This document shows, piece by piece, positions 2,767 to 21,188 of a stretch of DNA of 26,756 nt (positions are counted from its first letter, which is position 1; the number at the start of each line of letters is the position of its first letter). The DNA comes from a virus: positions 1 through 26,756 of IMG/VR virus record IMGVR_UViG_3300027851_000113; one strand, written 5' to 3'. The notes under the pieces are model-generated. The model was given only the letters and a program-made list of their open reading frames with translations. It was not told where the DNA came from and did not search any database. The position numbers and the translations under genes are program-made.

Positions 2767-4314
2767 ATGGTACAACTCCCTACAATCAACCAACTTACCG
2801 CTGCTAATATCCATTTGTTCATAGAGCACTATGACATAAAGAATGAGCAGGGAATGGCTCTAGAGTTCAAGGATAGAGCTTTCTTGTGGGACATCTATTC
2901 AGACATGTCTCCGTTCCAAGCAGTACTCAAAGCTCCTCAGATTGGCATGACAACCCTCATGACAATCAAGAGCTTCTGGGTAGCACACAACAGGCAAAAG
3001 GATATTATTTACACACTTCCAACGCAGCAAGATGTCCACCACATGGCTTCTTCTTCGATTAACCGTATCGTTGCGCAGAATCCTATCTTTAGTGAATGGG
3101 TAAAGGATCACGACTCAGTAGAGAGCAAACACGTAGGCAGTCAAACAATCCACTATCGAGGCACTTGGACAAACAAACAGGCTATGATGGTGCCGTCTCA
3201 CTTGAACATTCATGACGAGGTAGACGCTTCTAAGCCTGACGTTATAGAGCAATACGAAACACGCCTCCAAGCTACAGCAAATGGTATGCGTTGGTACTTT
3301 AGCCACCCAACACTCCCTGATGTAGGCATAGATAAGTTCTGGCAGATTAGCGACCAGAAGCACTGGTTTATTACCTGTCCCCACTGTGATGCAGTCCAGT
3401 ACCTTTCATGGCCTGACTCCATAGACAAAGAGCGTAGGTGCTATGTGTGCAAGGAATGTAACGCAGAGCTTAAAGACGAGGACAGACGCAAAGGTAAATG
3501 GTATCCGAAGTATAAGAACCGTCAGTTCTCAGGGTACTGGGTATCACAGCTTATGTGTCCTTGGATTACTGCCGACAAGATACTCACGGACTTCGCGGAG
3601 AAAACACCAGAGTACTTTTATAACTACGTTCTAGGACTTCCTTATACAGGGGGAGATTCAAAGCTCACGCAAGGCCACATCTTCCAAAACCTTACCTTTT
3701 CACAAGACGTACCAGAGAAAGACGAGCGTGTGGTACTTGGAATTGACACAGGCATGAAGCTAGACTTTGTGCTTGGTAACGAACGGCTAGGACTATTCCA
3801 TCATGGAGACGCAGACAACTATGAAGTATTGGACGGATTCATGCGTCGTTGGCCTTTTTGTATAGCAGTGATTGACGCTGGTGGAGACTTCATTGGTGCT
3901 CAACAGTTCTATGAGAGATGGCCTGGACGAGTATTTAAGGCATACGCAGGAGAGGATAGAAAAGACAACAAGCTCGTACGATGGGGGACTAAGGGAGATA
4001 AAGGACAAGTAGTCTATGACCTCAACCGCATGTGGCAGCTATGCGTAGATGAGATACGTGAACGTCGTCTACCTCTTCAAGGAACTGAGAACGATTGGTG
4101 GGAGTACTGGCTTGACTGGAAGAACATGTCTCGTATCAAAGTGTTTGATCCAAAGACCAACATGCTCAAAGGAACCAAATGGGTTAGGAATGGTAGAAAC
4201 CATCGCGCATCAGCCACTCTCTTCTGGCGTGTTGGCATGACTAAGTTCAGTGGCGGCAGTGCTACGTTCCTATCTCCTGGCATGGAGAATCCACAAAAAG
4301 GATATGAGGCGTAG
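2767..4314 (+). CDS. terL: Terminase large subunit, GpA-like
   Basis: This 515-residue packaging motor pumps DNA into the procapsid and cuts it. The ATPase half has an adenine/Walker A-like LKAPQIGMTT (54-63), a coupling-like TLPTQQD (83-89) and Walker B LNIHDEVD (146-153). A zinc-knuckle insert C204xxC207...C225xxC228xxC231, followed by GKWYP and the GYWVSQLMCPW segment, is typical of the lambda GpA-type family. The C-terminal RNase H-like nuclease shows GIDTG with Asp327 and VIDAGGD with Asp370/Asp374. Length is somewhat below lambda GpA but normal for environmental GpA-like terminases. The start is the third ATG in a cluster, three bases after terS. Its stop codon is the first triplet of a 14-base promoter-like element. 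Confidence 0.93.
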   Translation: MVQLPTINQLTAANIHLFIEHYDIKNEQGMALEFKDRAFLWDIYSDMSPFQAVLKAPQIGMTTLMTIKSFWVAHNRQKDIIYTLPTQQDVHHMASSSINRIVAQNPIFSEWVKDHDSVESKHVGSQTIHYRGTWTNKQAMMVPSHLNIHDEVDASKPDVIEQYETRLQATANGMRWYFSHPTLPDVGIDKFWQISDQKHWFITCPHCDAVQYLSWPDSIDKERRCYVCKECNAELKDEDRRKGKWYPKYKNRQFSGYWVSQLMCPWITADKILTDFAEKTPEYFYNYVLGLPYTGGDSKLTQGHIFQNLTFSQDVPEKDERVVLGIDTGMKLDFVLGNERLGLFHHGDADNYEVLDGFMRRWPFCIAVIDAGGDFIGAQQFYERWPGRVFKAYAGEDRKDNKLVRWGTKGDKGQVVYDLNRMWQLCVDEIRERRLPLQGTENDWWEYWLDWKNMSRIKVFDPKTNMLKGTKWVRNGRNHRASATLFWRVGMTKFSGGSATFLSPGMENPQKGYEA

Positions 4315-4348
4315 TACCACTACCCAACAGACATAAGTTTTATATTCT
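4312..4348 (+). promoter_or_regulatory. Putative phage late promoter, copy 1
   Basis: TAGTACCACTACCC (4312-4325) is followed by 17 bases, then TATTCT (4343-4348), then six bases, then the ATG at 4355. The same element at the same distance occurs at 6656 and 15710. It is the only sizeable gap around here, between terL and the portal cluster. One base of the 14-mer's palindrome (GTAGT-ACC-ACTAC) lies in the terL coding end. Confidence 0.75.
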
Positions 4349-4354
4349 GACTAT

Positions 4355-4552
4355 ATGAAAAAATCAGAAGAAAAAAAGCGTGAGCTTGCCAAGAAGATTG
4401 GTAACTTTAAGCGCGACATCAAGGAAGAGGACAAAGGCGAGAAACATTACATGAAGATGTCAAAGAAGTACCCTCGTGCTTCAAAGACGTTTAAGAATAT
4501 GGCAAAGGAAGAAGAAAGCCACGAGGAGAAATTAGAAAGCATTAGTAAATAG
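4355..4552 (+). CDS. Small, highly charged helical protein
   Basis: This 65-residue protein is about half Lys and Glu, predicted helical throughout. The C-terminal half (KYPRASKTFKNMAKEEESHEE) has an ExxH-like pattern faintly like short ferritin-like proteins, but one helix pair is not enough to assign that fold. It is the first gene behind late promoter copy 1 and sits two bases ahead of the portal gene, so it is made with the capsid proteins. It could be a small virion or DNA-associated protein. Function unknown. Confidence 0.65.
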   Translation: MKKSEEKKRELAKKIGNFKRDIKEEDKGEKHYMKMSKKYPRASKTFKNMAKEEESHEEKLESISK

Positions 4553-4554
4553 CC

Positions 4555-6426
4555 GTGGCCTCAACCCCATTTGCTCAAGGAATCTTCAACGCCGTCAAGG
4601 ACTCAATGGGTCTGATGAAAGACTTTAACAAAGTCAAAGATGTAGGCCCAACAGGAGACGGCAATGATGAACCACAGGAAGAGTATAAATCCTCATACAA
4701 AGATGAGGAGATTATCTCCCTTGTCAAAGCGTGGAAAGCGGCGTATTCGGGCTATTATGGCGACGTAGAGCCACTTCAGAAGAAAGCCTATGACTATTGG
4801 ATAGGAAAGCAAAAGACAGATACCCTTGAGTCTGTAGACGGACACGACACAGTAGACAACCTTATCTTCGAGGCTGTTGAAACATTCCTCCCTATTGCTA
4901 ACCGTGCAAACCCAGACCCACTCGTAAAGTCTAATAACCTAGACCTCGCAAAGAATGTAAAGGACGCACTCGTGGATTGGGCAGACAAACAGAAGCTCCG
5001 CATGAAACTCAAGAAAGGCACGCGTAACTGGGTGCTCTCACAGCTTGGTGTATGGAAGATGTCCTATAACGTCCTTAAAGACCAGATTGACTGCGATGTG
5101 GTTGATCCAAAGAATCTCATTCTAGACAAAGACGGACACTGGGACGAGGCAGGTTTGTTTACAGGTGAGTATATAGGTGAGAAGAAAAAGAAGTCAGCAT
5201 CTCTTCTTATTGAGATGTTCCCCGACCACGAGGAGCAAATCACATCCCTTGCTAAAGGAAAGATGGGCACCAAGCTGGAGTACACCGAATGGTGGTATCA
5301 CGGCACAGAAGTATTTTATGTAATTGACAACACTGTCCTAGGTAAGTTCAAGAACCCAAACTGGAACTACGATGGAGAGGAGAAGCGTATTGACCCAGAG
5401 ACACAAGAGGAAGTAGTCACCAAGATTATCGGCAAGAACCATAAGTTCGGCACTAACCAGCCAATGGCTCCATACGTGGGACTTGTTGTGTTTAACACAG
5501 GTGAGCATCCTCACGATGATACATCACTTATCCTCCAAAACATTCCAATGCAGGATATGGTGAACAAGCGATTCCGCCAGATAGATAAGAACGCAGACTC
5601 ACAGAACAACGGTGCACTTGCTTCAGGAGATGCATTCACCAAGGAACAGGCCGCTGAAGCCTCTACATTCCTTCGTAAGGGCGGTACAGTATGGGTGCCA
5701 AATGGAGACATCAACGCTGCATGGAAGCGTGATGCTGCCCCTAGCCTCCCACGAGACATCTTTGACCAACTCCGCGACTCACGAGATGAGTTGCGTAACA
5801 TCTTTGGTACTTCAGGTTCAACCCCTCAAGGCATCCAAGATGAGAACTCTGTACGTGGAAAGATTCTTGTATCCCAGCAAGACTCCTCGCGTATTGGTGG
5901 TGGTGTAACTGAGTACATCGAACAGTGCGCAGATACTATCTACAACTTCGTAGTGCAGTTTATGTATGTCTACTACGATGAGCCACACTACGTCGAGTCT
6001 ATGGGCATGTCAGGGGCACAAGAGACTATTGCTATTAGAAACACTGACTTCAATGAGGACGTTAATGTAACCGTTAAAGATGGCTCACTTATCCCAAAAG
6101 ACCCTCTTACAGAGCGCAACGAGGCTATGGACTTGTGGTCAGCTAACGCTATTGGTCTACCTGAACTCTATCAGCGTCTTGACTTCGCAGACCCAATGCA
6201 AAGCGCAAAGGAGACTCTTACATGGCAGATGGTTGCCCAAGGCAAACTCCCCCCTCAGGTACTTTTCCCTGACTTCGGAGCCAACCAAGCACAGGGCGCA
6301 ATCGGGGTAGGTGGCCCAGCAGTAAACCCTACTGGACAAATAGACACAACTCCTCCTCCACCTGACTCTGCACCTGCTGTCCAGCAAGAGTCGCAGCAAT
6401 TACTAAATAGCGTTCCACTTCAATAA
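4555..6426 (+). CDS. Portal protein
   Basis: This 623-residue protein is a phage portal, the dodecameric channel at the capsid vertex through which DNA enters and leaves. Features include VDNLIFEAVETFLPIANRA near residue 100, the wing/clip segment with NIPMQDMVNKRFRQIDKNAD (about 325-345), a Gly-rich loop, and the FDQLRDSRDELRNIFGTSG stretch (about 400-420) that precedes the long stem helices in many portals. The C-terminus is Gln/Pro-rich. The start codon is GTG two bases after the preceding stop; no upstream in-frame ATG is available. It lies downstream of terL and upstream of scaffold and capsid, the usual order for podovirus- and siphovirus-like heads. Confidence 0.88.
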   Translation: MASTPFAQGIFNAVKDSMGLMKDFNKVKDVGPTGDGNDEPQEEYKSSYKDEEIISLVKAWKAAYSGYYGDVEPLQKKAYDYWIGKQKTDTLESVDGHDTVDNLIFEAVETFLPIANRANPDPLVKSNNLDLAKNVKDALVDWADKQKLRMKLKKGTRNWVLSQLGVWKMSYNVLKDQIDCDVVDPKNLILDKDGHWDEAGLFTGEYIGEKKKKSASLLIEMFPDHEEQITSLAKGKMGTKLEYTEWWYHGTEVFYVIDNTVLGKFKNPNWNYDGEEKRIDPETQEEVVTKIIGKNHKFGTNQPMAPYVGLVVFNTGEHPHDDTSLILQNIPMQDMVNKRFRQIDKNADSQNNGALASGDAFTKEQAAEASTFLRKGGTVWVPNGDINAAWKRDAAPSLPRDIFDQLRDSRDELRNIFGTSGSTPQGIQDENSVRGKILVSQQDSSRIGGGVTEYIEQCADTIYNFVVQFMYVYYDEPHYVESMGMSGAQETIAIRNTDFNEDVNVTVKDGSLIPKDPLTERNEAMDLWSANAIGLPELYQRLDFADPMQSAKETLTWQMVAQGKLPPQVLFPDFGANQAQGAIGVGGPAVNPTGQIDTTPPPPDSAPAVQQESQQLLNSVPLQ

Positions 6427-6427
6427 C

Positions 6428-6655
6428 ATGGCATCAAACTTCCTTGAAAATAAACTACGTGAGTTTGCAAATAAGATTGCAGGCGTATCAGTCGTAGACA
6501 ACGAAAAGAACCCAAACTCAGCTCTTAATAGACAGAAACGAGCTATGAAAAACTCTAACGCTAAACCATCGTGGCAAGCGCGTGGAGTAAAGCAAAATCT
6601 CGACAAGATGTACTCAAACACTAAAGGAAAGACCTTTGGCGTGCCAGGCAAATAG
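6428..6655 (+). CDS. Small basic protein of unknown function
   Basis: This 75-residue Lys/Asn-rich protein begins one base after the portal stop. An N-terminal helix (FLENKLREFANKI) is followed by a flexible basic tail ending in Gly-Lys. The beginning is similar in style to the next small gene (both open with F-L-E-x-K-L), suggesting the two are distant paralogues. Its stop codon directly abuts late promoter copy 2, so it closes a transcription unit that starts at 4355. It may be a minor virion protein; nothing identifies it further. Confidence 0.65.
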   Translation: MASNFLENKLREFANKIAGVSVVDNEKNPNSALNRQKRAMKNSNAKPSWQARGVKQNLDKMYSNTKGKTFGVPGK

Positions 6656-6692
6656 TAGTACCACTACCCACACCACACATTCTCTATAAGAT
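6656..6692 (+). promoter_or_regulatory. Putative phage late promoter, copy 2
   Basis: TAGTACCACTACCC (6656-6669), a 17-base gap, TAAGAT (6687-6692), six bases, then the ATG at 6699. Spacing is identical to copy 1 to the base, while the gap sequence differs, which is what a promoter rather than a recent duplication should look like. Confidence 0.75.
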
Positions 6693-6698
6693 AAAGAT

Positions 6699-6860
6699 AT
6701 GCCAAAGTTTTTAGAACAAAAGCTAGAGAAAGAGTATGGAAATAATCCACACGCTATCTACGGCACACTTAACAAGATAGGTGCTATGAAAGGCTCCAAG
6801 GAAACCAAGAAAGGTAAAGCCATGGAGCGCAAGCACAAATTAGCTAAAAACATTAAATGA
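6699..6860 (+). CDS. Small basic protein (53 aa)
   Basis: The reading frame from the ATG at 6699 to the TGA at 6858-6860 encodes 53 residues, starting PKFLEQKLEKEYG and ending Lys-rich. It is preceded exactly by a late-promoter element and overlaps the next start as ATGA, which supports it as a real gene despite its length. The opening resembles the protein encoded at 6428. No function can be assigned; a virion-associated or nucleic-acid-binding role would fit its charge. Confidence 0.7.
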   Translation: MPKFLEQKLEKEYGNNPHAIYGTLNKIGAMKGSKETKKGKAMERKHKLAKNIK

Positions 6861-7006
6861 TTTGCGAAAATTGTAACGGAACAGGACTAGAGACACAGTG
6901 GCTTGTATGCCCTGTTTGCTCTGGTATCGGTCATGACGGCACTCTTGTGAAAGAAACAGTGGTCTCAAAAGTGAAGAAAGCAGTTAAGAAAGCAACAAAG
7001 AAATAA
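6857..7006 (+). CDS. Mini zinc-finger protein with DnaJ-type CxxCxGxG motifs
   Basis: This 49-residue frame starts in an ATGA overlap with the previous gene. It contains two CxxCxGxG motifs, CENCNGTG (residues 3-10) and CPVCSGIG (18-25), the pattern that forms one zinc centre in the cysteine-rich domain of DnaJ. The rest is a basic tail of repeated Lys-Lys and Val/Ala. No J domain is present. DnaJ zinc modules bind unfolded protein and assist disulphide chemistry, so a chaperone-accessory role alongside the phage GroEL/GroES is imaginable. A nucleic-acid-binding zinc ribbon is the plainer alternative. Confidence 0.72.
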   Translation: MICENCNGTGLETQWLVCPVCSGIGHDGTLVKETVVSKVKKAVKKATKK

Positions 7007-7007
7007 C

Positions 7008-7202
7008 ATGAAAGCAAAACTAGGCTCAGGTTCTCGCTTCAAAGCAGTAGAAGAAAGTGCAGAAAAGTCTGGTGCTTCTGATCCAGCAGCTGTCGCAGCC
7101 GCAGTAGGCATGAAGAAATACGGCAAGAAGAAGATGGAGAAGATGGCACAGAAAGGCAAAGCACGTGAAAAGAAGCGTGAGATGGCAGAGAAAATTAAAT
7201 AG
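7008..7202 (+). CDS. Small Ala/Lys-rich phage protein
   Basis: This 64-residue protein begins KAKLGSGSRF, then has an Ala-rich stretch ending GMKKYGKKKMEKMAQKGK and a basic tail. Proteins with this 'LGSGxRFKA...Ala-x-IG/VGxKKYGKKKM' layout are frequent beside portal and capsid genes of phages and are usually unnamed, so the gene is very likely real. It starts one base after the preceding stop and ends the small-gene cluster before the hairpin at 7209. A DNA-compaction or virion role is guesswork. Confidence 0.72.
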   Translation: MKAKLGSGSRFKAVEESAEKSGASDPAAVAAAVGMKKYGKKKMEKMAQKGKAREKKREMAEKIK

Positions 7203-7208
7203 TATCTA

Positions 7209-7249
7209 AGGGTTTTCTAGAGTGTAGCCCTCCGCAAGGTAAAAACCCT
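7209..7249 (+). terminator. Hairpin with 8-bp stem between small-gene cluster and scaffold
   Basis: AGGGTTTT (7209-7216) pairs with AAAACCCT (7242-7249) around a 25-base loop. A run of six T lies 14 bases further on (about 7263). It follows the last small gene by six bases. It could be a weak intrinsic terminator or a leader structure in the 99-base gap before the scaffold gene at 7302; the T run is too distant for a canonical terminator. Confidence 0.4.
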
Positions 7250-7301
7250 CCGTATCAGCTAATTTTTTCTCGGATGTTTAGTAAAACCTCCCGTAACTCA
7301 T

Positions 7302-8129
7302 ATGGAAATAACACCACAAGGATTTGAGAGAGCGTCAGACAAATTGACTCAGGAACAACTTAACGCACCAATAGACGAAGTAGTTGCGGAGCCAGCCGCG
7401 GAGTCCGTCCCCGAAGAGGCCGTTGAGGAATCTGAACAGGAAATCCCTGATAAACCAGAGACCGAATCAGAAGACACAGAGGATTCAGAAGAATCCGAAG
7501 AGGAGGAAAAGGTTCCCAAGTCACGCTTTCTCACAATGCATCAGCGGGCAGTAGAAGCTGAAAGGCTACTACGTCAGCTTGAGGCAGAACGCGCAGACGC
7601 TCCTGAACCAGAGAAACCCCTAGCCGACGATGAGTCACTGAAACAGCACTACATCGACATATTCGGAGAAGGGGAACTAACGGAGAAACTCTATCAGGCA
7701 GAACTCGCACGATTAGCTTCCATTGAAGAAAAGGCAGCTGAACGGGCGTTTGAACGTCTTAGCCAACGTGAAGAGCAAGCGGCACAACTTATCGAAAAAC
7801 GAGTAGAAAGTTTTGACCGAGCATTTGATGAACTTAGTGCACTTGAAGGACGGGACTTCTCAGATGATGAACAGGTAGCAATACTTGACATCGTAGAGAA
7901 ATACTCTCCTAAAGATTCAAAGGGCAAACTGATAGGTGACTATCTCATGCCTCTTGACCAAGCACTGGAGATTTACCAAGTGCAGAATGCTCCTAAAGTT
8001 CAGGCAAAGAAAATCGAACGCAACAAGGTAGCTTCTCTTAGTGGAGCACGCTCTGAAGGCAAACCAACAGGGGAATCAGCATCAGACTGGAAACCAGGTT
8101 GGAATGGCGAATGGAGAAACAAAATCTAA
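7302..8129 (+). CDS. Capsid scaffold-like protein
   Basis: This 275-residue protein has the hallmarks of a phage scaffolding protein, the internal template for procapsid assembly. It has a very acidic N-terminus (about residues 20-70, mostly Glu, Ser and Asp), a long Glu/Ala/Arg-rich coiled-coil region (75-185), and a basic C-terminus with KKIERNKVASLSG near residue 245, the part that usually binds the capsid protein. It lies 22 bases before the major capsid gene, the classic position. A 99-base gap with a hairpin precedes it, and no Shine-Dalgarno sequence is seen. Call rests on composition and position. Confidence 0.75.
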   Translation: MEITPQGFERASDKLTQEQLNAPIDEVVAEPAAESVPEEAVEESEQEIPDKPETESEDTEDSEESEEEEKVPKSRFLTMHQRAVEAERLLRQLEAERADAPEPEKPLADDESLKQHYIDIFGEGELTEKLYQAELARLASIEEKAAERAFERLSQREEQAAQLIEKRVESFDRAFDELSALEGRDFSDDEQVAILDIVEKYSPKDSKGKLIGDYLMPLDQALEIYQVQNAPKVQAKKIERNKVASLSGARSEGKPTGESASDWKPGWNGEWRNKI

Positions 8130-8151
8130 TTAACACTTAACTTTAATCATT

Positions 8152-9180
8152 ATGGCATTCTCAAATCAGGTAGATGTCCTGACGATGGAGGATATTGTTC
8201 CAAACGTAGTGGACACCGTACTTCGCTCAAACGCGCTTACGACCCGTCTTCTTACTAAGGACACAAAGAAGTTCCGTTCTGCTACACAGGATTTCCCAAT
8301 CAAGTATCAGAAAGGAACAGCTACGCAATCCTTTATCGGCTTCCAGACACTTCCAACATCACTTACGGCAACCCGTACGTTGATGAAGTACAATCCAGCG
8401 TTCAACGCGGCAAACGTCGCACTTGCAACGTCTGATACCGCAGCTAACAACACGCTCCGCAAGGTTCTTGACCTTACGGAAGTGGAAATGATTTCGCGTG
8501 CACAGGACTTGGCAGACTCTATTGGTACACAGTTCTACGCTTCACAATCGCTTTCAACCGACTTCCTCGGTCTTGGAAACATCGTGAGCGCAACTGGTAC
8601 TATCGGCGGTCTCTCACGTACGACCTACAGCACGCTTCAGTCAACAGTTACTGCTTCAGGCGGTACGCTTTCTCTCTACAAGATGCGTACCTTGAAGAAC
8701 AACATCTCCGACGGTGGTGTTGCTCCTACTGAGTCATTTACTGACTACGCAACGTGGGCACTCTATGAGCAGCTTTTGCAGCCTCAGGAGCGTATCAACA
8801 AGGACGTAAACGTAGCACCTAACTTCAAGGGCTACACAGGATATGAGGCAATCATGTTCGCAAACCTTCCTATTACGCCAGACCGAAAGGCAACCTCAGG
8901 CTACCTCTACATGCTCAACGCAGACTTCCTCAACTTCTACACCCTCGACATGCTCGGTGGTCTAGACAAGAGTGGATTCTCAGGTGAGAAAGTAAAGGTT
9001 GGCTCTAAGCTCTTCCTTGGTTCTCAGTACAGCCCAGACGAAAACTTCGGCTTCTTCTGGACAGGTTTCATTCACGCTACAAACGCGATGGCTTGGAACT
9101 CGTTCATTGTCGTCGCAGGTAACCTCGTCTCTGCTAACCCTCGTCGTCACGGTGTCCTTACAGGCATCACATCGGTCTAG
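8152..9180 (+). CDS. Major capsid protein
   Basis: This 342-residue protein fits the HK97-fold major capsid families of podoviruses. It begins FSNQVDVLTMEDIVPNVVDTV, then has an extended segment with a FPIKYQKG motif (about 49-56), a spine-helix region with EVEMISRAQDLADSIGTQFYA (about 112-132), and a C-terminal part with the FWTGFIHATNAMAWNSF stretch and a PRRHGVLTG end. It lies immediately after the scaffold candidate and before decoration-like genes. Codon use looks regular with frequent C-ending codons, as expected for the most highly expressed gene. Upstream, TTTAAT lies four bases before the ATG; no Shine-Dalgarno sequence. Confidence 0.87.
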   Translation: MAFSNQVDVLTMEDIVPNVVDTVLRSNALTTRLLTKDTKKFRSATQDFPIKYQKGTATQSFIGFQTLPTSLTATRTLMKYNPAFNAANVALATSDTAANNTLRKVLDLTEVEMISRAQDLADSIGTQFYASQSLSTDFLGLGNIVSATGTIGGLSRTTYSTLQSTVTASGGTLSLYKMRTLKNNISDGGVAPTESFTDYATWALYEQLLQPQERINKDVNVAPNFKGYTGYEAIMFANLPITPDRKATSGYLYMLNADFLNFYTLDMLGGLDKSGFSGEKVKVGSKLFLGSQYSPDENFGFFWTGFIHATNAMAWNSFIVVAGNLVSANPRRHGVLTGITSV

Positions 9181-9191
9181 GTTTATTAGTC

Positions 9192-9197
9192 TAAGTT
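9192..9197 (+). promoter_or_regulatory. -10-like TAAGTT six bases before ATG
   Basis: TAAGTT (TAnnnT) sits exactly six bases before the ATG at 9204 in the 23-base gap after the capsid gene. No 14-base late element and no -35 hexamer is found upstream. Predicted output is a leaderless mRNA. Confidence 0.4.
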
Positions 9198-9203
9198 ATT
9201 GCT

Positions 9204-9614
9204 ATGACTAATATCCTCAAATACGCAGGAATTGTAGCCCTCGTGGTATCTATCGTAGTTGCTGTAAAGGTATTTGCTCCTATTCAAGCCAACACACTTG
9301 GCGCGGTAGGAAATCAACTTATCGAACAGTATGACCCTTACGTGCGATACAACGGAGGTATCAACTCTGCTCTTCCAATTCAGACTTCAGGGACACTTAC
9401 TGGCGGTGCATCCACATTTAGTGGGGATGTGACGGTAACTACGAGCAACACGGCTACTTCAACGCTTACAGTTGGTTGTATACAGATGTATGCTACTTCT
9501 ACTGCAACCGCTGTACGTCTTGAGTTCAGCACAACTACGCAGCTTGCTTCCTACCCAAATGGAACAGTTCCAACAGGTTCGGTTGCGTGGAGATACGGTA
9601 CGTGCCCTAACTAA
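9204..9614 (+). CDS. Membrane-anchored or exported beta-rich protein
   Basis: This 136-residue protein starts with a hydrophobic segment (about residues 7-24, AGIVALVVSIVVAV-type) following a single Lys, so it is either signal-anchored or secreted. The rest is Thr/Ser-rich: TSGTLTGGASTFSGDVTV, then TATSTLTVGCIQMYATSTA. I associate the latter with surface proteins of Parcubacteria and with phage fibre segments. Two Cys (in VGCIQ and near the C-terminus, RYGTCPN) could form a disulphide outside the cell. It lies between the capsid and decoration-like genes, an odd place for an exported protein. Function unknown. Confidence 0.72.
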   Translation: MTNILKYAGIVALVVSIVVAVKVFAPIQANTLGAVGNQLIEQYDPYVRYNGGINSALPIQTSGTLTGGASTFSGDVTVTTSNTATSTLTVGCIQMYATSTATAVRLEFSTTTQLASYPNGTVPTGSVAWRYGTCPN

Positions 9615-9623
9615 TTACTAATC

Positions 9624-9629
9624 TAAGAT
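9624..9629 (+). promoter_or_regulatory. -10-like TAAGAT six bases before ATG
   Basis: TAAGAT followed by six bases (aaaatt) precedes the ATG at 9636. This is the same box and spacing as late promoter copy 2, but without the 14-base element. It is preceded by a C (CTAAGAT), as at 9191. Confidence 0.4.
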
Positions 9630-9635
9630 AAAATT

Positions 9636-10355
9636 ATGTCTTCACTTCGTTCAGACCTTCTCATCAACCCACAGGAGTTGTTCGACATCTCTGTCAGCAC
9701 GACTTCAGATGGCACACAGTTGGGCGGTCTCGCTACTACAGGTGACGGGCGTTATTTCCGCTATGCTAAGGCAGGAGCTACGGCTCTCGTCCCAGGTAAA
9801 CTTCAGCAGTCTTCTGCAGAAGCAACTGGCAACGAGAACCTCGGTGTTGCTGCAGCAGCTATCGGTGATACGTCAATCACCACTACATCAACCGTAACTG
9901 TTACTGCAGACCAGTACGCAGGTGGTTATGTAGTCGTTACTACAACTCCTGGTCAGGGCTATCAGTACCAGATTGCAGGTCACGCAGCAGCTACTTCAGC
10001 AGTTGTTACCCTCAATCTTACTGACCCTATTCAGGTCGCACTTACGACAAGCTCAGTTATTGACCTTGTTGCTAACCCTTACAATGGCGTTGTTGTCAAT
10101 CCTACGACTGCAACTGGTCTTCCAGTTGGCGTAGCGGTTGCTGCAACTCCAGCTAACTACTACGGTTGGATTCAGACTGGTGGTGTTGGTACTGTCCTTG
10201 CAGACGGTTCAATCACTGTTGGTACTAACCTCGTAGCTTCTAACGGCACAGCAGGTGCGGTAGAGCCACTTACAGGTGTTCAGGCACTTGTTGGTGTTGC
10301 TGTCACGGGAATTGCCACCACCGAATACGGTGCGGTAAATCTTCTCTTGAACTAA
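9636..10355 (+). CDS. Capsid decoration / virion structural protein
   Basis: This 239-residue protein is rich in Thr, Val, Ala and Gly with few charges. It has the repeated beta-strand layout of phage head-decoration and minor structural proteins: GLATTGDGRYFRYAKAG near residue 35, then AIGDTSITTTSTVTVTADQYAGGYV (about 76-99), and the closing VGVAVTGIATTEYGAVNLLLN. The 'conserved G-R-x-F-R-Y-A...L-V-P-G-K-L-x-Q' opening is common in proteins encoded next to podovirus capsid genes. It probably coats the outer surface of the capsid. It ends a cassette: a long hairpin follows at 10366. Confidence 0.68.
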   Translation: MSSLRSDLLINPQELFDISVSTTSDGTQLGGLATTGDGRYFRYAKAGATALVPGKLQQSSAEATGNENLGVAAAAIGDTSITTTSTVTVTADQYAGGYVVVTTTPGQGYQYQIAGHAAATSAVVTLNLTDPIQVALTTSSVIDLVANPYNGVVVNPTTATGLPVGVAVAATPANYYGWIQTGGVGTVLADGSITVGTNLVASNGTAGAVEPLTGVQALVGVAVTGIATTEYGAVNLLLN

Positions 10356-10365
10356 CGTCCTCTCA

Positions 10366-10403
10366 CTATCCACAAGGGGGTCTTGACATCTTCTTGTGGG
10401 TAG
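10366..10403 (+). terminator. 11-bp stem hairpin after the capsid cassette
   Basis: CTATCCACAAG (10366-10376) pairs with CTTGTGGGTAG (10393-10403) with one G-T pair and a 16-base loop. It lies 11 bases after a stop codon in a 94-base gap. There is no following T run, so it may be a Rho-assisted terminator, an RNA-processing site or an operator overlapping the promoter at 10394. Confidence 0.45.
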
Positions 10404-10421
10404 TACAGAGCATGGTATAGT
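10394..10421 (+). promoter_or_regulatory. Sigma70-like promoter with extended -10
   Basis: TTGTGG (10394-10399), a 16-base spacer, then TGG-TATAGT (-10 at 10416-10421). The nine bases TGGTATAGT are identical to the -10 region of the minus-strand promoter at 20776, suggesting the same host-type sigma factor. Transcription would start near 10428, about 22 bases before the ATG at 10450. The nearby TTGACA at 10383 is too far (27 bases) to be the -35. Confidence 0.5.
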
Positions 10422-10449
10422 TTGTGTATAACAAAATAATCTATAAACA

Positions 10450-10983
10450 ATGTCATCGTACCTAGATTTTGAAGGACTCTACGACCCAAAACGAACATTC
10501 GCAGTTACTAACTGGTCAGATGAAGATATCCAGGTAAACTGGAAAGACGAGACAGGCGACAACTTCTATACTCTCCATAAAGGCGAAGTTAAAACCTATC
10601 CCCAGTATCTTGCTTATTTCATTACTAAAGAGCTTGTAGACCGTGAGATGTATAAAGACGCTGCAAAGCTTCCTAACAACCCAGACGGCTCATATACAAA
10701 AGCTCGTGAGCGTGCAGAAATGGCAGTAGCAAACAAGGACATGCGCAAGCCATACGAGGATAAGACCATTCAGGAAGTAATCGAAGGCCAGGAATCTCCT
10801 GAGGTAACAGCAATGCGAGCTAAAATCCGTGAGCAGCTTATTCAGGAAGGCACACTTTCCTCTGAAATGAACAACAACGCTGACGGTTCTGAAAAAGAAG
10901 AGTTTGCAGACGTTCCAAAGAAAGAAGCTAAAAAGCCAGGTCGTCCTAAAAAGAGCGCAGAAGAAGTAAACGCAGGGGCTTAA
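10450..10983 (+). CDS. Phage protein of unknown function with basic tail
   Basis: This 177-residue protein has an N-terminal half that looks like a small beta domain (TFAVTNWSDEDIQVNWKDE, then YTLHKGEVKTYPQYLAYFI). A Glu-rich helical middle follows, then a Lys/Pro C-terminus with KKPGRPKKS, an AT-hook-like motif. The N-terminal layout occurs in unnamed proteins of environmental phages near the capsid genes. A head-completion or DNA-contact role is possible but unproven. It opens a new cassette behind a hairpin and a sigma70-like promoter, and the next gene follows after two bases. Confidence 0.7.
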   Translation: MSSYLDFEGLYDPKRTFAVTNWSDEDIQVNWKDETGDNFYTLHKGEVKTYPQYLAYFITKELVDREMYKDAAKLPNNPDGSYTKARERAEMAVANKDMRKPYEDKTIQEVIEGQESPEVTAMRAKIREQLIQEGTLSSEMNNNADGSEKEEFADVPKKEAKKPGRPKKSAEEVNAGA

Positions 10984-10985
10984 AC

Positions 10986-11741
10986 ATGGCAATGCGGCTT
11001 CTGTCCCCTTCCCAGGGAAAGAGTCGTAGGGAACTGGACATACATTCTCAAGAACTCCGTATAACAGAACTCGATGGACTAATCGAGCGCAAACGCCTTG
11101 AGCTACAACAGCTAGACAGGGACATGGTTCGTGCATTGTCTGAGAAGGGAGCAGAACGGTTTGAGGAGGACGAGAAGTGGAAACAAAAGATACATACCCT
11201 AACCGAAGAAGTCATCCAGCTTGAAGCGCGTAAGAAGCGTGCACTTGTACCACTAGAGGAAAAAGAGAAAGAGTTAGATACTAGAGATAGTGCTCTTTCT
11301 AAGCGTGAAGAAACGGTCAAAATAAAGGAGTCAGACCTTGAGTATACGAAAAAGGCACTTGAAGATAAGTTAGACGCAGTGTCAGAGCGAGAGGTAGAGG
11401 CAAATGAATATGCAGCTACTCTAAGCAATCGTGAATATGCAATTAAAATGCAGGAAGACGAGCTTAAATCGCGTATGAATGCACTTACAACTATCCTTCA
11501 AGAGTCGTTTACAGACATTCAAAAAGCACACGATGAAGCTGCAAAACACAAGGCAATTCTCAAGGGACGCGATATTACACTTGCAGAACGCGAGCGTAAG
11601 GTAGCCGAGATAGAAAAGACATTTGATGACCGAGACCGTGCTATCACAGACCGTTACCGCACGCTTATGAGAGCTATTACTGAAGTAAATCTTAAAGATA
11701 ATGTCACTAAACAAGATCCAACACTCGGCACCGACAAATAG
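10986..11741 (+). CDS. Long coiled-coil protein
   Basis: This 251-residue protein is almost entirely coiled coil: Glu, Lys, Arg and Leu dominate with heptad spacing from about residue 20 to 235, and there are no membrane segments. The blocks KREETVKIKESDLEYTKKAL and similar (SNREYAIKMQEDELKSRMNA) recur, indicating internal repetition with a 'REx(n)K-x-x-E-x-x-L' rhythm. It begins two bases after the preceding stop. It may be a structural spacer, a tape-like rod or an assembly factor. Its last 41 bases overlap the next gene in another frame. Confidence 0.72.
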   Translation: MAMRLLSPSQGKSRRELDIHSQELRITELDGLIERKRLELQQLDRDMVRALSEKGAERFEEDEKWKQKIHTLTEEVIQLEARKKRALVPLEEKEKELDTRDSALSKREETVKIKESDLEYTKKALEDKLDAVSEREVEANEYAATLSNREYAIKMQEDELKSRMNALTTILQESFTDIQKAHDEAAKHKAILKGRDITLAERERKVAEIEKTFDDRDRAITDRYRTLMRAITEVNLKDNVTKQDPTLGTDK

Positions 11742-12015
11742 TACTGGAACAGGTAGTACTACTGCTTCTGCAACTATCACAGGTACAGCAGGACACACCA
11801 TCTACATCACAGATATTGCAGCAAGCTCTGATAAATCAGGTGCTATCCTGTTGGTAAAAGACGGTTCCACTACAATTTGGCAGCAGATTATTGGTGCCAC
11901 GGCATACTGGCAGAAATTCGAGTCACCACTTACCATCACTGCAGGAAATGACGCAGTGGTATCGGTAGACGGAACCTCTGCTTGTAAAGCAAATATCGGC
12001 GGCTTCATACAATAG
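11701..12015 (+). CDS. Small beta-rich structural protein
   Basis: This 104-residue protein is rich in Thr, Ala, Ser and Ile with alternating hydrophobics, like a single beta-sandwich. Features include TASATITGTAGHTIYITDI (about 21-40), LLVKDGSTTIWQQ (50-62) and a DAVVSVDGTSACKANIGGFIQ-type end. It resembles small phage virion or decoration proteins with a jelly-roll-like pattern. The start lies 41 bases inside the coiled-coil gene; no later ATG is available before the domain begins, so the overlap is probably real. Its exact place in the virion is unknown. Confidence 0.65.
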   Translation: MSLNKIQHSAPTNSTGTGSTTASATITGTAGHTIYITDIAASSDKSGAILLVKDGSTTIWQQIIGATAYWQKFESPLTITAGNDAVVSVDGTSACKANIGGFIQ

Positions 12016-12018
12016 TCT

Positions 12019-12309
12019 ATGACTTCTGGTTCTGTAATTCGAGACCAGAACCGAGTCCCAGTCTGGTGGGGGCTTTCTAGTGTTGATGGAAAAACGCTCG
12101 TACCTATCAGCATCAACTCATCAACTGGAAAACCAATGTTTGAAATTGGCACCTCAATATCGGCTGTCATTTCCAATATCCCAGAGACTATCCCTAGAGA
12201 TGAAAATAGGATTCCCTGTCTTACAGGAGTGTCGAATACGGATTCATCAGTGCGCATTCCTGTATCGGTAAATCCAACTACGGGGGCCATACTCGCTATA
12301 CTTCCATGA
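12019..12309 (+). CDS. Two-repeat phage structural protein
   Basis: This 96-residue protein consists of two copies of a ~33-residue module: residues 8-41 (RDQNRVPVWWGLSSVDG ... SSTGKP) and 60-92 (RDENRIPCLTGVSNTDS ... PTTGAI). Each module reads R-D-x-N-R-x-P-x(3)-G-x-S-x-x-D, then a P-x-x-I/V strand, then T-G. A third copy opens the next protein. Such modules appear in tail-associated proteins of environmental phages and may be small beta-hairpin trimerisation or binding units. It starts three bases after the previous stop and ends in an ATGA overlap with the next gene. Confidence 0.72.
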   Translation: MTSGSVIRDQNRVPVWWGLSSVDGKTLVPISINSSTGKPMFEIGTSISAVISNIPETIPRDENRIPCLTGVSNTDSSVRIPVSVNPTTGAILAILP

Positions 12310-12653
12310 CTTACACACCTTCAAATTATGACGCGATACGTGACGGGAATAGAGTACCCATTGCTATGGGTGTGTCTAATACAGACTCTACTCAATCTCT
12401 GCCATTTAAAATAGATTCTGTTACAGGTCGTTTACTCATAGATTCTGCAACTGGAACAGCAATATACAACGAAGTTGTATCTGGCTCTGGCACTTCTTGG
12501 ACGCTTGCGCATACTCCTACAACGGACACTTTAATGCTTTACGCGAACGGCCAACGTCTTACTCCTACTGTTGATTATTCGCTTTCTGGCGCAGATATAA
12601 CTACAGTAACGAGTTGGGCTACAGGGACGCTTCTAGCAGATTATTTCTATTAG
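12306..12653 (+). CDS. Structural protein: repeat module plus beta domain
   Basis: This 115-residue protein starts in an ATGA overlap with the previous gene. Residues 12-46 are a third copy of the R-D-x-N-R-x-P module. After a short linker, residues ~56-115 form a domain with GSGTSWTLAHTPTTDTLMLY-ANGQRLTP, the 'G-S-G-T-x-x-T-L-x-x-x-P...L-x-x-N-G-x-R' pattern common in phage tail and fibre proteins. It therefore probably belongs to the tail or baseplate periphery. The splitting of one repeat series over two coupled genes suggests that the two products assemble together. Confidence 0.72.
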   Translation: MTYTPSNYDAIRDGNRVPIAMGVSNTDSTQSLPFKIDSVTGRLLIDSATGTAIYNEVVSGSGTSWTLAHTPTTDTLMLYANGQRLTPTVDYSLSGADITTVTSWATGTLLADYFY

Positions 12654-12654
12654 T

Positions 12655-14445
12655 ATGGCTGCACACAAAGAAGGAAACGACCTAGTGATAGACTCTTGGG
12701 AACAAGGTATTGCTGACGCACCTGAGCAAGGTATTACGTTTATGCGCAATATAAACCTTGTGTCTATCCCAGGCGAGGCACCTGTGAACTATAAGACGGC
12801 AGAAGGAGGAGTGCCACCTGCTGGTACATCTGGTGCTTCTTGTACGCTCACAGCCTCTACAAACGCCGTAACATGGACTACAGGTGGTGTGACCCTATAT
12901 TCAGGAGCAGCAGTGATGTTTGGTTCAACAGCGGGAGGCGTTACTGCAGCAACAGTGTACTGGATTTCAAATGTCACAAATGGTTCAACAGGTTCGTTCA
13001 AAGTGTATACAGATATAGGCCATTCCCAGGTGGTGACACTTTCTAATGCAAGTAACACGTTTACAGTAATTCCTTTTGGTAAACCAAAACAAAAAGCAAT
13101 AGACTCGGTAAATAAGTATGTATTCATGCTTGACGATGCTGGACGAGCATGGTGGATTAACTCTAGTAGCAATCTCGTATTTTTAGGAAATACCACTTTA
13201 ACAAGCACACACGGTAATGGGCTGTGTGTGTTTGGTAACTACCTTTTCGTTTTTAGAGACTCTGCAATAGACTATTTTCCTATTACCTATATTACCTCTA
13301 CCAGTACACCTGTTTGGACATACGGTTGGAATTCGTGGTCTATAACTACTGACTCAAGTACTGGATACAGCCACTACGCTATTGCTGCACAAGATAACGG
13401 GATGTATTTCTGTAATGGTCAGAATATCCAAAGCATATTGGTCGTGGGTGGGTCTGTCTTTGACCCCACGAATAGCGCAACATATACGGCCACTCTTCCA
13501 AGTGGCTATGCTCTCCTACTCCCGACTGTAGACCGAGCAGTCTGTTTGGCCGAACTCGGTACATCGCTTCTCGTTGGCGGTATTCAAAATAAAATCTATC
13601 CGTGGGATAGAGTAAGTACTTCATATAGTTATCCAGTAATTGTTGCTGAAAGCTACATTACACGCATGGTGACTACTAACTCAAGTACTTATGTGTTTGC
13701 AGGAAATCGTGGACGTATTTATATAACAAACGGTGCAAACATAAACCTGTTTAAGAAAGTACCAGACCATATTGTCGGTATCTTTGGAGCTTCTAATGGA
13801 ACAGATCCATACTACACATGGCTTGATGCAATCTATTGGAAGAACCAGATATTCTTTAGTTTTACTGTAACCAAGAATGACGGCACTGCGGTGACTAACA
13901 TGGGCGGCCTATGGGCACTTGACGTTTCAATGAATATCATGGGTACTGCTACTGCTGTTGGACTACGCATGACTAACACACTTTCACAAGGGGCTACGTT
14001 CTTCCCACACGTGATCGCGCCAAACGTAAACAGTAATAATCCAGCTGGTACAGGTCTGTATCTTGGCTGGTCAAGTGCTACCACAACCTCTTACGGTATA
14101 GACGTAACTACTTCTAACCCATACAGCGACCTTTCTACTGAAGTAGTAGGAGAAATCTATACTGACCTTATTAAAACAGGTACATATATTGCGCCACTTT
14201 CGTTTACACAAGTAGAGTGGAAACTCGCCGAACCTCTTGTATCAGGAGAAAAGGTACGTATTTCTATACGTCAATCCTATTCAGATGCCTGGACAGTTGT
14301 TGGAACTACTGACACGGCAGGTGTGCTATCTGCAGCATACGATATGCCAGTGCAAAATGGCCAATGGGTGCAATTCTACATAGAGCTTCAATCAACTACT
14401 TCGTCGCCTTCTTTTGTCCGACTTAAAGAGATAAGAGTACGCTAG
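12655..14445 (+). CDS. Large structural protein, probable tail hub/nozzle with propeller-like repeats
   Basis: This 596-residue protein begins with the segment KEGNDLVIDSWEQGIADAP and then contains successive blade-like segments: KYVFMLDDAGRAWWIN (~158-173), GNYLFVFRDSAIDYF (~196-210), TSLLVGGIQNKIYPW (~304-318), STYVFAGNRGRIYI (~341-354) and IYWKNQIFFSF (~389-399). The pattern 'short strand, Asp/Gly turn, Trp/Tyr strand' fits a beta-propeller, as in podovirus tail hub or nozzle proteins. The C-terminal 100 residues form a separate beta domain (EVVGEIYTDLIKTG onward). It starts one base after the previous stop and is followed by the fibre gene after one base. The propeller reading is inference. 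Confidence 0.62.
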   Translation: MAAHKEGNDLVIDSWEQGIADAPEQGITFMRNINLVSIPGEAPVNYKTAEGGVPPAGTSGASCTLTASTNAVTWTTGGVTLYSGAAVMFGSTAGGVTAATVYWISNVTNGSTGSFKVYTDIGHSQVVTLSNASNTFTVIPFGKPKQKAIDSVNKYVFMLDDAGRAWWINSSSNLVFLGNTTLTSTHGNGLCVFGNYLFVFRDSAIDYFPITYITSTSTPVWTYGWNSWSITTDSSTGYSHYAIAAQDNGMYFCNGQNIQSILVVGGSVFDPTNSATYTATLPSGYALLLPTVDRAVCLAELGTSLLVGGIQNKIYPWDRVSTSYSYPVIVAESYITRMVTTNSSTYVFAGNRGRIYITNGANINLFKKVPDHIVGIFGASNGTDPYYTWLDAIYWKNQIFFSFTVTKNDGTAVTNMGGLWALDVSMNIMGTATAVGLRMTNTLSQGATFFPHVIAPNVNSNNPAGTGLYLGWSSATTTSYGIDVTTSNPYSDLSTEVVGEIYTDLIKTGTYIAPLSFTQVEWKLAEPLVSGEKVRISIRQSYSDAWTVVGTTDTAGVLSAAYDMPVQNGQWVQFYIELQSTTSSPSFVRLKEIRVR

Positions 14446-14446
14446 T

Positions 14447-15712
14447 ATGAATGAACAGGAAGTAAAAGATATTGCAACAAAGGTGTATAACGATTTAGGC
14501 ACTCAGTTTGGAGTTGCTAAAGTACCTGCCCACCTCCACAATGGAGTGGATACAAACAACCTACCCCTTTCGTCTATAGCAAATTTCTTTCCGCAAGTAA
14601 CATCAGTACCTACAAACATTCCAAACCAATTCAGTCAATACATTGTGACTCATACAGATGTGGCACAAATAGACTATTATGACCAAACTAACGGTGTATG
14701 GAGAAGTATAGCGGCTTCTAATACTACGTCTCCTCTAACTTTAGATATGACCGCTGGAGAGGACATAACGGCAGGTGACGCTGTAGCTGCGTATCCCGCT
14801 CAGACTTCTTCCATTGTATTTGATACAAGCGCAAGTACATTTAATGGCCCAGTTACATCAGTTACTCTAAGTATTACAGTTGGCAACAACTCTAATAGAT
14901 TGCTGCTGGTATTTTATACGGCATCCATGAGCAACACCTCAACTATAACAGGGACATACAACGGTGTAGCCATGACACATCTTATAAACCGAAGTGGCGG
15001 CAGTATTTTGTATTCTGGTTGTTTTTACGTCGTAGCACCAACCACTGGGACTCACGATATTGTAATAACAAGTACAAATATTGGGAATATCAGCATTGTA
15101 GGAATGAGTTACTACAACGTAGACCAATCAAATCCTATAGATACTAGTGGCTATGCTTCTGATTTTTCATCTGGCACATCAGTAAGTAAAACAATGACAC
15201 CATCTGTAGATGGATGCAGAATTGTCTCTGGGCTTGGATATAACAGCGCTGTAGCCCTTACTACCAAGACAAATATGTCTACTAACTTTACCACTAGTAC
15301 TACAGCTAGTGGGCCAGTTACGGGTGCAGGGGATAGTGGGAATATAATTCTTGCAACCAATACGACTATAACTGGTGGCTATACAAGTAATCTTGGTGGA
15401 GCAATTTTATCGTGTGTAATTATAAGACCATCATCAGCAGTCACTTATAATGCATATAAAGCATCAGCAAGTACTGCAACACCAAACAAGTATCAGGCGT
15501 TCGTAGGATTTGCTAACGCTTCAGCTTCTTCAGCGGCCACGGTATCAGTAGTGATTAGTGGTGTATGTAATGTACTGTCTGGTCTGCTACCAACACGTCA
15601 ATACTATATATCCGACACAGCTGGCGCTATTTCTACTTCTGCTGGGACTAACACACGGAAAGTAGGGATCGCACTTTCTGATACGGAGATATTAGTTACT
15701 AATATATGGTAG
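14447..15712 (+). CDS. Tail fibre / receptor-contact protein candidate
   Basis: This 421-residue protein has a short helical N-terminus (EQEVKDIATKVYNDLG), then VPAHLHNGVDTNNLPL (26-41), the H-x-H-N-G-x-D motif found at the base of many phage fibres. A Thr/Ser-rich beta middle follows (~115-340), with repeated strand pairs. The C-terminal ~75 residues (VGFANASASSAATVSVVISG ... ISDTAGAISTSAGTNTRKVGIAL) match a small knob-like domain common in tail proteins of environmental phages. It is the last gene of its operon, and its stop codon forms the start of late promoter copy 3. Host receptor binding is the most likely role. Confidence 0.72.
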   Translation: MNEQEVKDIATKVYNDLGTQFGVAKVPAHLHNGVDTNNLPLSSIANFFPQVTSVPTNIPNQFSQYIVTHTDVAQIDYYDQTNGVWRSIAASNTTSPLTLDMTAGEDITAGDAVAAYPAQTSSIVFDTSASTFNGPVTSVTLSITVGNNSNRLLLVFYTASMSNTSTITGTYNGVAMTHLINRSGGSILYSGCFYVVAPTTGTHDIVITSTNIGNISIVGMSYYNVDQSNPIDTSGYASDFSSGTSVSKTMTPSVDGCRIVSGLGYNSAVALTTKTNMSTNFTTSTTASGPVTGAGDSGNIILATNTTITGGYTSNLGGAILSCVIIRPSSAVTYNAYKASASTATPNKYQAFVGFANASASSAATVSVVISGVCNVLSGLLPTRQYYISDTAGAISTSAGTNTRKVGIALSDTEILVTNIW

Positions 15713-15746
15713 TACCACTACCCCGCCTATATAGAAATGGCAATAT
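15710..15746 (+). promoter_or_regulatory. Putative phage late promoter, copy 3
   Basis: TAGTACCACTACCC (15710-15723) again begins exactly 43 bases before an ATG (15753). At the canonical 17-base gap the box reads CAATAT (15741-15746), a weak match. A better TATACT lies three bases further on (15744-15749). The first triplet is the stop codon of the fibre gene. Confidence 0.72.
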
Positions 15747-15752
15747 ACTACT

Positions 15753-16670
15753 ATGCGAACATATTCTAATTACCTCTCAGACTTCCAGTCTTTGAGCCAG
15801 AACAGTTCAAGCGCAAACCAGACGTTCGGTATGCGTCTGGTAAATGACGCATTACGCTATCTTGTTGGCGTGTTTTTCTTTAATGAGACGACTTATCTTC
15901 CCGCAGGAGGAACGGTTGCGAGCCAAGCAGCATACACACTTCCACATGATGTAAAGCAGGTTATCAACGTCACCGTTACTATCGGTAGCGTCCTTTGGCA
16001 ACCAGTGGAATGTGCTACACGTAAACAGTACGACGCTCTGAACGTGATTCAATTCACCAACAACTATCCACAGTTCTACTACATTTACAACAACCAGCTT
16101 CTTATCTGGCCTACTCCAGCGAATAACGGGGATACTATAACCGTTCACTACAAGAAGCGTATTACAGACCTATCCCAGGCGGATTACACAACTGGCACTG
16201 TGTCTGCTACGCAAACAAGCGCAACCGTAACTGGTTCAGGTACAACCTGGACTACAAACATGGCAGGTAGATGGCTAAATATCGCCACCACAAACAGTGA
16301 TACTACCTCAGGAGATGATTCATGGTATCAAATTGCAAGCGTAGAAAGTAGCACATCTCTGACCTTAAATAATCCTTATGTAGGGCAAGATGTAACGGGT
16401 GGTTCTTACATCATTGGTGAAGTACCGATTCTTCCTGAGGACTTCCAAGACCTTCCTCTCTATCGTGCACTGATGCTTTATTTCTCTTCTACTGGTTCTG
16501 GCGCACCAAACGCCGCCCAGAAGGTAGCGGAATATAAAGGACTTTACGATGCTGGGTACGCGCAGCTAGAAGCAGAGTTTGGTTCAAAGACTTCTAGTGT
16601 GGGCATTACCCCACAAGACTACCCAACCGTGAGTCCGAACCTTTTTCAAAGTAATATAACTGGCCCCTAA
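15753..16670 (+). CDS. Head-tail adaptor / tail accessory protein candidate
   Basis: This 305-residue protein begins with a helical stretch with MRLVNDALRYLVGVFFFNE (~27-45). It continues as a beta-rich middle with the PQFYYIYNNQLLIWPTP segment (~108-124) and a GTVSATQTSATVTGSGTTW stretch (~150-168), and ends with a helix pair EDFQDLPLYRALMLYFSS (~228-245). The PxFYY...L-x-x-x-P-x-P pattern and the final amphipathic helices resemble podovirus adaptor proteins that bind the portal base and close the head. It is the first gene behind late promoter copy 3 and precedes two ejection-protein candidates. No specific homologue is recognised. Confidence 0.6.
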   Translation: MRTYSNYLSDFQSLSQNSSSANQTFGMRLVNDALRYLVGVFFFNETTYLPAGGTVASQAAYTLPHDVKQVINVTVTIGSVLWQPVECATRKQYDALNVIQFTNNYPQFYYIYNNQLLIWPTPANNGDTITVHYKKRITDLSQADYTTGTVSATQTSATVTGSGTTWTTNMAGRWLNIATTNSDTTSGDDSWYQIASVESSTSLTLNNPYVGQDVTGGSYIIGEVPILPEDFQDLPLYRALMLYFSSTGSGAPNAAQKVAEYKGLYDAGYAQLEAEFGSKTSSVGITPQDYPTVSPNLFQSNITGP

Positions 16671-20104: not shown

Positions 20105-20128
20105 AATAGTGCTTCGAGTAGCATTATT
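20105..20128. terminator. 9-bp stem hairpin overlapping the end of the minus-strand gene
   Basis: AATAGTGCT (20105-20113) pairs with AGCATTATT (20120-20128), one G-T pair, loop TCGAGT. It overlaps the stop codon (20124-20126) of the minus-strand gene. It is near-symmetric, so it could act in both directions. Confidence 0.45.
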
Positions 20129-20768: not shown

Positions 20769-20775
20769 ATCCGAG

Positions 20776-20804
20776 ACTATACCAAATAGTTTTCCACAGG
20801 TCAA
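20776..20804 (-). promoter_or_regulatory. Strong sigma70-type promoter, leaderless, for the minus-strand gene
   Basis: Read on the minus strand: TTGACC (20804-20799), a 17-base spacer ending in TGG, TATAGT (20781-20776), seven bases, then the ATG at 20768. Spacing and boxes are near ideal, and transcription would start at the start codon. It contains the same TGGTATAGT as the + promoter at 10394. Confidence 0.82.
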
Positions 20805-20831
20805 TACAGTTATAAACATGGACAAATACGA

Positions 20832-20837: not shown

Positions 20838-20843
20838 GTAGTG

Positions 20844-21188
20844 ATGTTAGTCTACTTTTTTGACCTAAAACGCTTGAGTAAACCACTCAATGAGTATTCT
20901 CAGCTTGAAGAGATGCTAGCTCTTCGTTCTCTTGGGTGGTCATACATGGCTCTAGCGGATAAGTTTAATGTCCCAAAGACAACAATACGTTATTTGTGTA
21001 GACGTTTTGGTCTTGCAAACAACGTTCGTGTGACTGTCCTGCGCCAAGACGTTAGTACCACTACCAGCCACCATATCGAGACGTATACTGAGGAAGATAG
21101 AATAAATCCAGGCAAAACATACGCAGAGTATTTACAAGAAGAGAAAGATAGAAAATGGCGCAAACTACTTCAATCACAACAAAAATAA
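20844..21188 (+). CDS. Small helix-turn-helix DNA-binding protein
   Basis: This 114-residue protein has a helix-turn-helix (~22-58): LEEMLALRSLGWSYMALADK is followed by FNVPKTTIRYLCRRFG, as in sigma region 4- or resolvase-like HTH domains. The C-terminal half is charged, with TYAEYLQEEKDRKWRKLL. The ATG at 20844 is preferred to the GTG one codon earlier because TATTAT lies exactly six bases upstream. It is divergent from the exported-protein gene, a typical position for a regulator of its neighbour. A copy of the late-promoter element lies inside its coding sequence at 21053, and its end overlaps the next gene by 34 bases. Targets are unknown. Confidence 0.75.
   Translation: MLVYFFDLKRLSKPLNEYSQLEEMLALRSLGWSYMALADKFNVPKTTIRYLCRRFGLANNVRVTVLRQDVSTTTSHHIETYTEEDRINPGKTYAEYLQEEKDRKWRKLLQSQQK
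21053..21089 (+). promoter_or_regulatory. Putative phage late promoter, copy 4 (inside the HTH gene)
   Basis: TAGTACCACTACCA (21053-21066; 13 of 14 bases match), a 17-base gap, then TATACT (21084-21089), the best -10 of the four copies. Transcription would start near 21096, giving a leader of about 59 bases to the gene at 21155. Unlike the other copies it is not at an ATG. Confidence 0.6.

Follow-up and report, generated by a model that had tools for sequence, protein, structure and literature searches.

A conserved upstream box at a fixed distance from a sigma70-type -10 element precedes structural gene blocks in a clade of uncultured phages

Three gene blocks of an uncultured phage are preceded by the same 14-nt sequence at the same distance from the start codon, which raises the question of whether the repeat is part of a promoter and, if so, of what would read it. 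The window analyzed here is the whole 26,756 nt stretch of the phage fragment IMGVR_UViG_3300027851_000113 (positions 1–26,756), which is recognizable as phage DNA from its gene content (terminase, portal, scaffold, capsid and SU10-type adaptor) and has no close cultured relative, the best cultured terminases being about 22% identical. It also carries genes for a phage-borne GroEL (PF00118; 18–1532) and a probable GroES (1550–1813), conserved through the group, and, between groES and the terminase gene, a gene for a protein with a T5orf172/MUG113 domain (2030–2389).

Exact copies of TAGTACCACTACCC occur on the plus strand at positions 4312..4325, 6656..6669 and 15710..15723, and the ATG codons at 4355, 6699 and 15753 each lie 43 bases downstream of the first letter of their copy, as the initial annotation had reported. 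The hexamers that it described are likewise present on the plus strand, 17 bases behind the 14-mer and 6 nt ahead of the ATG: TATTCT (4343..4348), TAAGAT (6687..6692) and the weakest of them, CAATAT (15741..15746). The element was said to head the portal, scaffold/capsid and ejection clusters, and indeed the first gene of each block sits right downstream, coding for a small Lys-rich protein in the portal block (4355..4552, plus strand), a 53-aa Lys-rich protein in the scaffold/capsid block (6699..6860, plus strand) and an SU10-type adaptor protein in the adaptor/ejection block (15753..16670, plus strand; PF24175, E = 6.6e-14). In two copies, those starting at 4312 and 15710, the initial TAG doubles as the stop codon of the upstream gene, which is the terminase gene in the former and gene 14447–15712 in the latter.

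None of 100 Markov shuffles of the window contained 14-mers in three copies, and the window has just one other 14-mer in triplicate, which belongs to a low-complexity, Gly-rich coding repeat; the TAGTACCACTACCC element itself counts as two overlapping registers. Allowing up to three mismatches, there are nine matches in the window vs. 2.06 expected. These include a fourth copy, TAGTACCACTACCA, missed by the initial annotation, which has one mismatch and lies at 21053..21066 (plus strand) within a gene for a small helix-turn-helix (HTH) protein (20841..21188, plus strand). It is followed at the same 17-base gap by TATACT (21084..21089, plus strand), with the start of a gene for a fibre-like protein (21155..22675, plus strand) 65 bases downstream, and has a homologous site in contig G005 (position 4696, minus strand). 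A de novo search for k-mers repeated at the same distance was too noisy to be of use.

Relatives were drawn from viral contigs, and the clade comprises the window and six other genomes or fragments (L126, L131, L132, G003, G005 and G008), whose terL and capsid sequences, where present, are 68–78% and 81–87% identical to those of the window, respectively. G008, of about 40 kb and with 123-base end repeats, is probably complete. The six other members contain related boxes at homologous gene junctions, with the consensus sTAGTRCCACTAsC, and across the clade the boxes are located between terL and the portal gene, between the portal and scaffold genes, ahead of the adaptor gene and ahead of the fibre gene; they are absent from the replication regions. 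The preferred spelling of the box differs from genome to genome, for example CTAGTGCCACTAGC in G005, CTCGTACCACTCCC in G008 and CTAGTACCACTACCGTA in L126, and this combination of genome-specific variants with preserved spacing is the pattern expected for a co-evolving, phage-specific DNA-binding factor. No site was found in L127 (terL 70% and capsid 49% identical to the window), which is probably a recombinant, as its terminase and structural genes look as if they had different histories, and the more distant relatives G004, G009, G014 and L135–L138 showed no promoter of this type. The idea that G004 might have a spacing one helical turn longer received no support from other sites.

The spacing was examined by scoring all TRCCACT-type cores, on both strands, for a downstream TAnnnT. 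The spelling of the core was picked after viewing the family, but the offset and the downstream box had been given beforehand by the initial annotation, so the test on the relatives is close to independent. In the six clade members other than the window, TAnnnT occurs 17 bases behind the 14-mer (offset 21) in 16 of 116 cores, while the average over the remaining 39 offsets is 1.8 (Poisson, 1e-10). There was no peak at this offset in motif-less relatives (1/83) or with the reversed core (1/112), and a scan of the whole collection for the exact 14-mer, which retrieved matches in other contigs that mostly lack a -10 and was reused as a control, gave TAnnnT at this place in only three of 106 distinct 14-mers from other viral contigs. 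In the window alone, four of 25 cores have TAnnnT at offset 21, of which one, on the minus strand within a coding repeat, is probably due to chance; the hexamer of the third exact copy, CAATAT, falls outside the pattern.

Alignment of 20 sites revealed two blocks, sTAGTRCCACTAsC (-44 to -31) and TAnnaT (-12 to -7), at a fixed distance from each other and with the box on the same strand as the downstream gene. The second block is a TATAAT-like -10 hexamer, as in sigma70 promoters, with T-12, A-11 and T-7 in 19 of the 20 sites each and A-8 in 14. Positions -12, -11 and -7 served for selecting most of the sites, but -8 did not, and the frequency of adenine there is significant (P about 1e-4). Poor -10 hexamers are found at the third exact copy and at L126 position 6894 (TTATCA). 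The 14-mer had been described as sitting where a -35 region would be without being a sigma70 -35, and this holds across the sites: at 15–19 bp, the best match to TTGACA is 2–3 of 6 positions at 19 of the 20 sites and 4 of 6 at the remaining one. Conservation of the box is highest at -40 to -34, farther upstream than the usual -35 contact. In contrast, within the same window the gene at 20124–20825 (minus strand) is preceded by a promoter of its own, TTGACC-17-TATAGT, 7 nt ahead of its probable ATG. This is the only gene on the opposite strand and has a secreted-looking product; G005 and G008 also have opposite-strand genes at a similar place.

The proposal that the repeat marks a promoter thus receives strong support from the comparative data, both from the spacing in the relatives and from the homologous junctions. 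We regard the two blocks as a real, phage-clade-specific class of promoters, with a new box sequence and a known principle, that of a phage box combined with a host -10. The 14-mer is probably the upstream half of such a promoter heading the structural blocks, in which a factor bound to the box would replace the -35 contact. The architecture would consist of sTAGTRCCACTAsC at -44 to -31, about 17–18 nt of free sequence and TAnnaT at -12 to -7, with transcription predicted to start at the ATG or within about three bases of it. The TAnnaT hexamer suggests that the polymerase is a holoenzyme of host type, having a sigma70-like region 2, which would read the -10 through its main sigma. A DNA-binding protein specific to the phage would occupy the box, substitute for the missing -35 contact and turn on the structural genes late. 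Both activation and its lateness are predictions, and the timing is suggested solely by the structural nature of the downstream modules.

The ATG lies 6–9 bases behind the -10 in 15 of the 20 sites and 20–23 bases behind it in three, and there is none within 40 bases at the two sites internal to genes. With a sigma70-type enzyme, the first transcribed base usually lies about 6–7 bases downstream of the -10, so most of these mRNAs would be leaderless or have a leader of 2–3 bases. Sequences resembling a Shine-Dalgarno precede only one of 31 genes in the window, vs. 14% of random positions, and 1–5 of about 40 genes in the relatives. This scarcity would fit a host that initiates translation without Shine-Dalgarno pairing; the general character of the secreted and fibre proteins leads us to suspect a member of the Patescibacteria as that host.

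The near-palindrome GTAGT-ACC-ACTAC, which had been noted as a property of the element, turned out to be restricted to the three exact copies of the window. Over the 20 sites, pairing of the arms from the centre outwards occurs in 20, 17, 11, 13 and 12 sites, and the left arm is partly the stop codon of the upstream gene at two of the three window copies. The conserved portion of the box is its right part, CCACTA, and, with the outer pairing decaying, a site for a symmetric dimer is not to be assumed.

Several known systems share part of this organization. T4 middle promoters keep a host sigma70-type -10 and have the -35 replaced by a phage box at a rigid distance, the MotA box, (a/t)3TGCTTtA, being centred at -30 and 12 ± 1 bp from the -10 (PMC2988021); MotA acts there with AsiA by sigma appropriation, a mechanism defined by a factor that contacts both the box and sigma region 4. 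The promoters of the window clade resemble them in combining a phage box with a sigma70-type -10 and no -35; however, their box has another sequence, is centred near -38 and lies 17 bp from the -10, they are found at structural genes with the ATG at the start site, and there were no matches to the MotA or AsiA Pfam families (E ≤ 0.01) among 79 clade proteins, mostly non-structural, from G003, G005 and G008, a comparison that remote relatives could escape. They consequently fall outside the definition of T4 middle promoters in box, position and factor. The late promoters of phiEco32 and 7-11, with few well-conserved copies per genome ahead of structural genes, are read by a sigma of the phage itself (PMC4331800); the clade shares the few conserved copies and their location, but no sigma domain was found in its phages. 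As with the promoters of T7-type single-subunit polymerases, a phage-specific conserved sequence lies shortly ahead of genes, but here the sequence is split into two blocks, one of them a sigma70-type -10, and no such polymerase was found, although the control genomes were also without PF00940. Ordinary sigma70 promoters share the TAnnaT hexamer and differ in lacking the upstream box and having a -35. At the same junction, sigma70-like promoters matching at least 10 of 12 positions occur in 7 of 33 distant relatives vs. 6% of shuffles and in none of the seven clade members, which is suggestive only of some distant relatives using ordinary sigma70 promoters there. Finally, no promoter report for GTACCACTA was found in the literature among the matches listed.

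The initial annotation predicted a phage-encoded activator or sigma-like factor, of which the activator remains plausible and the sigma found no counterpart. In six records, among them G003, G004, G005, G008 and G009, searches with Sigma70_r2/r4 found nothing at E ≤ 1, with positive controls; PF00940 was absent from the six records, as it was from the control genomes; and protein scans of near-complete relatives did not match RNA_pol families either. A search of RNA families likewise gave no match. The HTH protein encoded at 20841–21188 is the best candidate for the factor reading the box, although weakly supported. Its gene was found in each of the four long genomes with the motif and, more diverged, in G004, G024, G026 and G029, of which G004 showed no promoter of this type; additionally, it sits among late genes, an odd place for an activator of late genes. 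A fold search with its model (pLDDT 67; 82–89 in the HTH core) retrieved only non-significant matches, at E near 1, which included sigma region 4 and LuxR-type HTH domains. The next candidate after it is a 65-aa protein whose gene lies upstream of groEL in relatives.

The box might instead be a long -35 that is recognized by an alternative sigma, from the phage or, conceivably, from the host, acting with a sigma70-like -10 and no separate activator. The rigid spacing, the overlap of the box with -36 to -31 and the precedent of phiEco32 and 7-11 (PMC4331800) agree with this, but the negative sigma searches argue against a phage sigma, and the location of the most conserved positions upstream of the usual -35 contact argues against either source; we consider this reading unlikely. 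It is also improbable that the box is an operator, with a repressor occupying -44 to -31 and silencing the structural promoters until its release. Operators commonly overlap the -35 region and the window does encode an HTH protein; however, with the box set aside these promoters are left with a weak -10 and lack a -35, and would be poor even when free.

Two further readings dispense with a promoter. The repeat could act as a hairpin or as a site for mRNA processing, packaging or recombination, without any start of transcription, since the arms of the window copies can pair and the element is found at the ends of genes, overlapping stop codons. This is very improbable, because the dyad decays over the 20 sites while the distance to TAnnaT is fixed and the strand matches the downstream gene. 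Mere chance repetition within one genome, for which nothing speaks but the low copy number, is already refuted by the shuffles, the peak at offset 21 and the homologous positions in six other phages.

Returning to the promoter with a factor on its box, a broader scenario, which we put forward tentatively and with some doubt, is that a clade of phages of an uncultured, Shine-Dalgarno-sparing host evolved an activator of its own, one not related to MotA, that would replace the -35 contact of the host RNA polymerase and lead to leaderless structural operons. Late control in these phages would then be linked to the translation of leaderless mRNAs without Shine-Dalgarno sequences. The box drifts lineage by lineage, as co-evolution with the factor would predict, and the two blocks provide a checkable promoter grammar for phages without a close cultured relative, by which late operons become predictable in the metagenomic genomes of this group.

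Other features accompany these sites. In G005, a box at 5807 (plus strand) faces opposite to the other late promoters, ahead of a small Lys-rich ORF. Downstream of the promoters, the window (4355–4552, 6699–6860 and 7008–7202) and G005 (about 5850–6045) encode small Lys-rich proteins that resemble one another at the C-terminus. The scaffold gene is preceded by a leader rich in C/G blocks (7195–7301; GGGTT...CTAGGG...CCCCCGTAA) conserved in seven relatives, whose consensus fold is weak (-4.3 kcal/mol) and contains some compensatory pairs. The capsid and neighbouring genes have AT-rich leaders (8152, 9636 and homologues), often with TAATTA about 20–28 nt ahead of the ATG.
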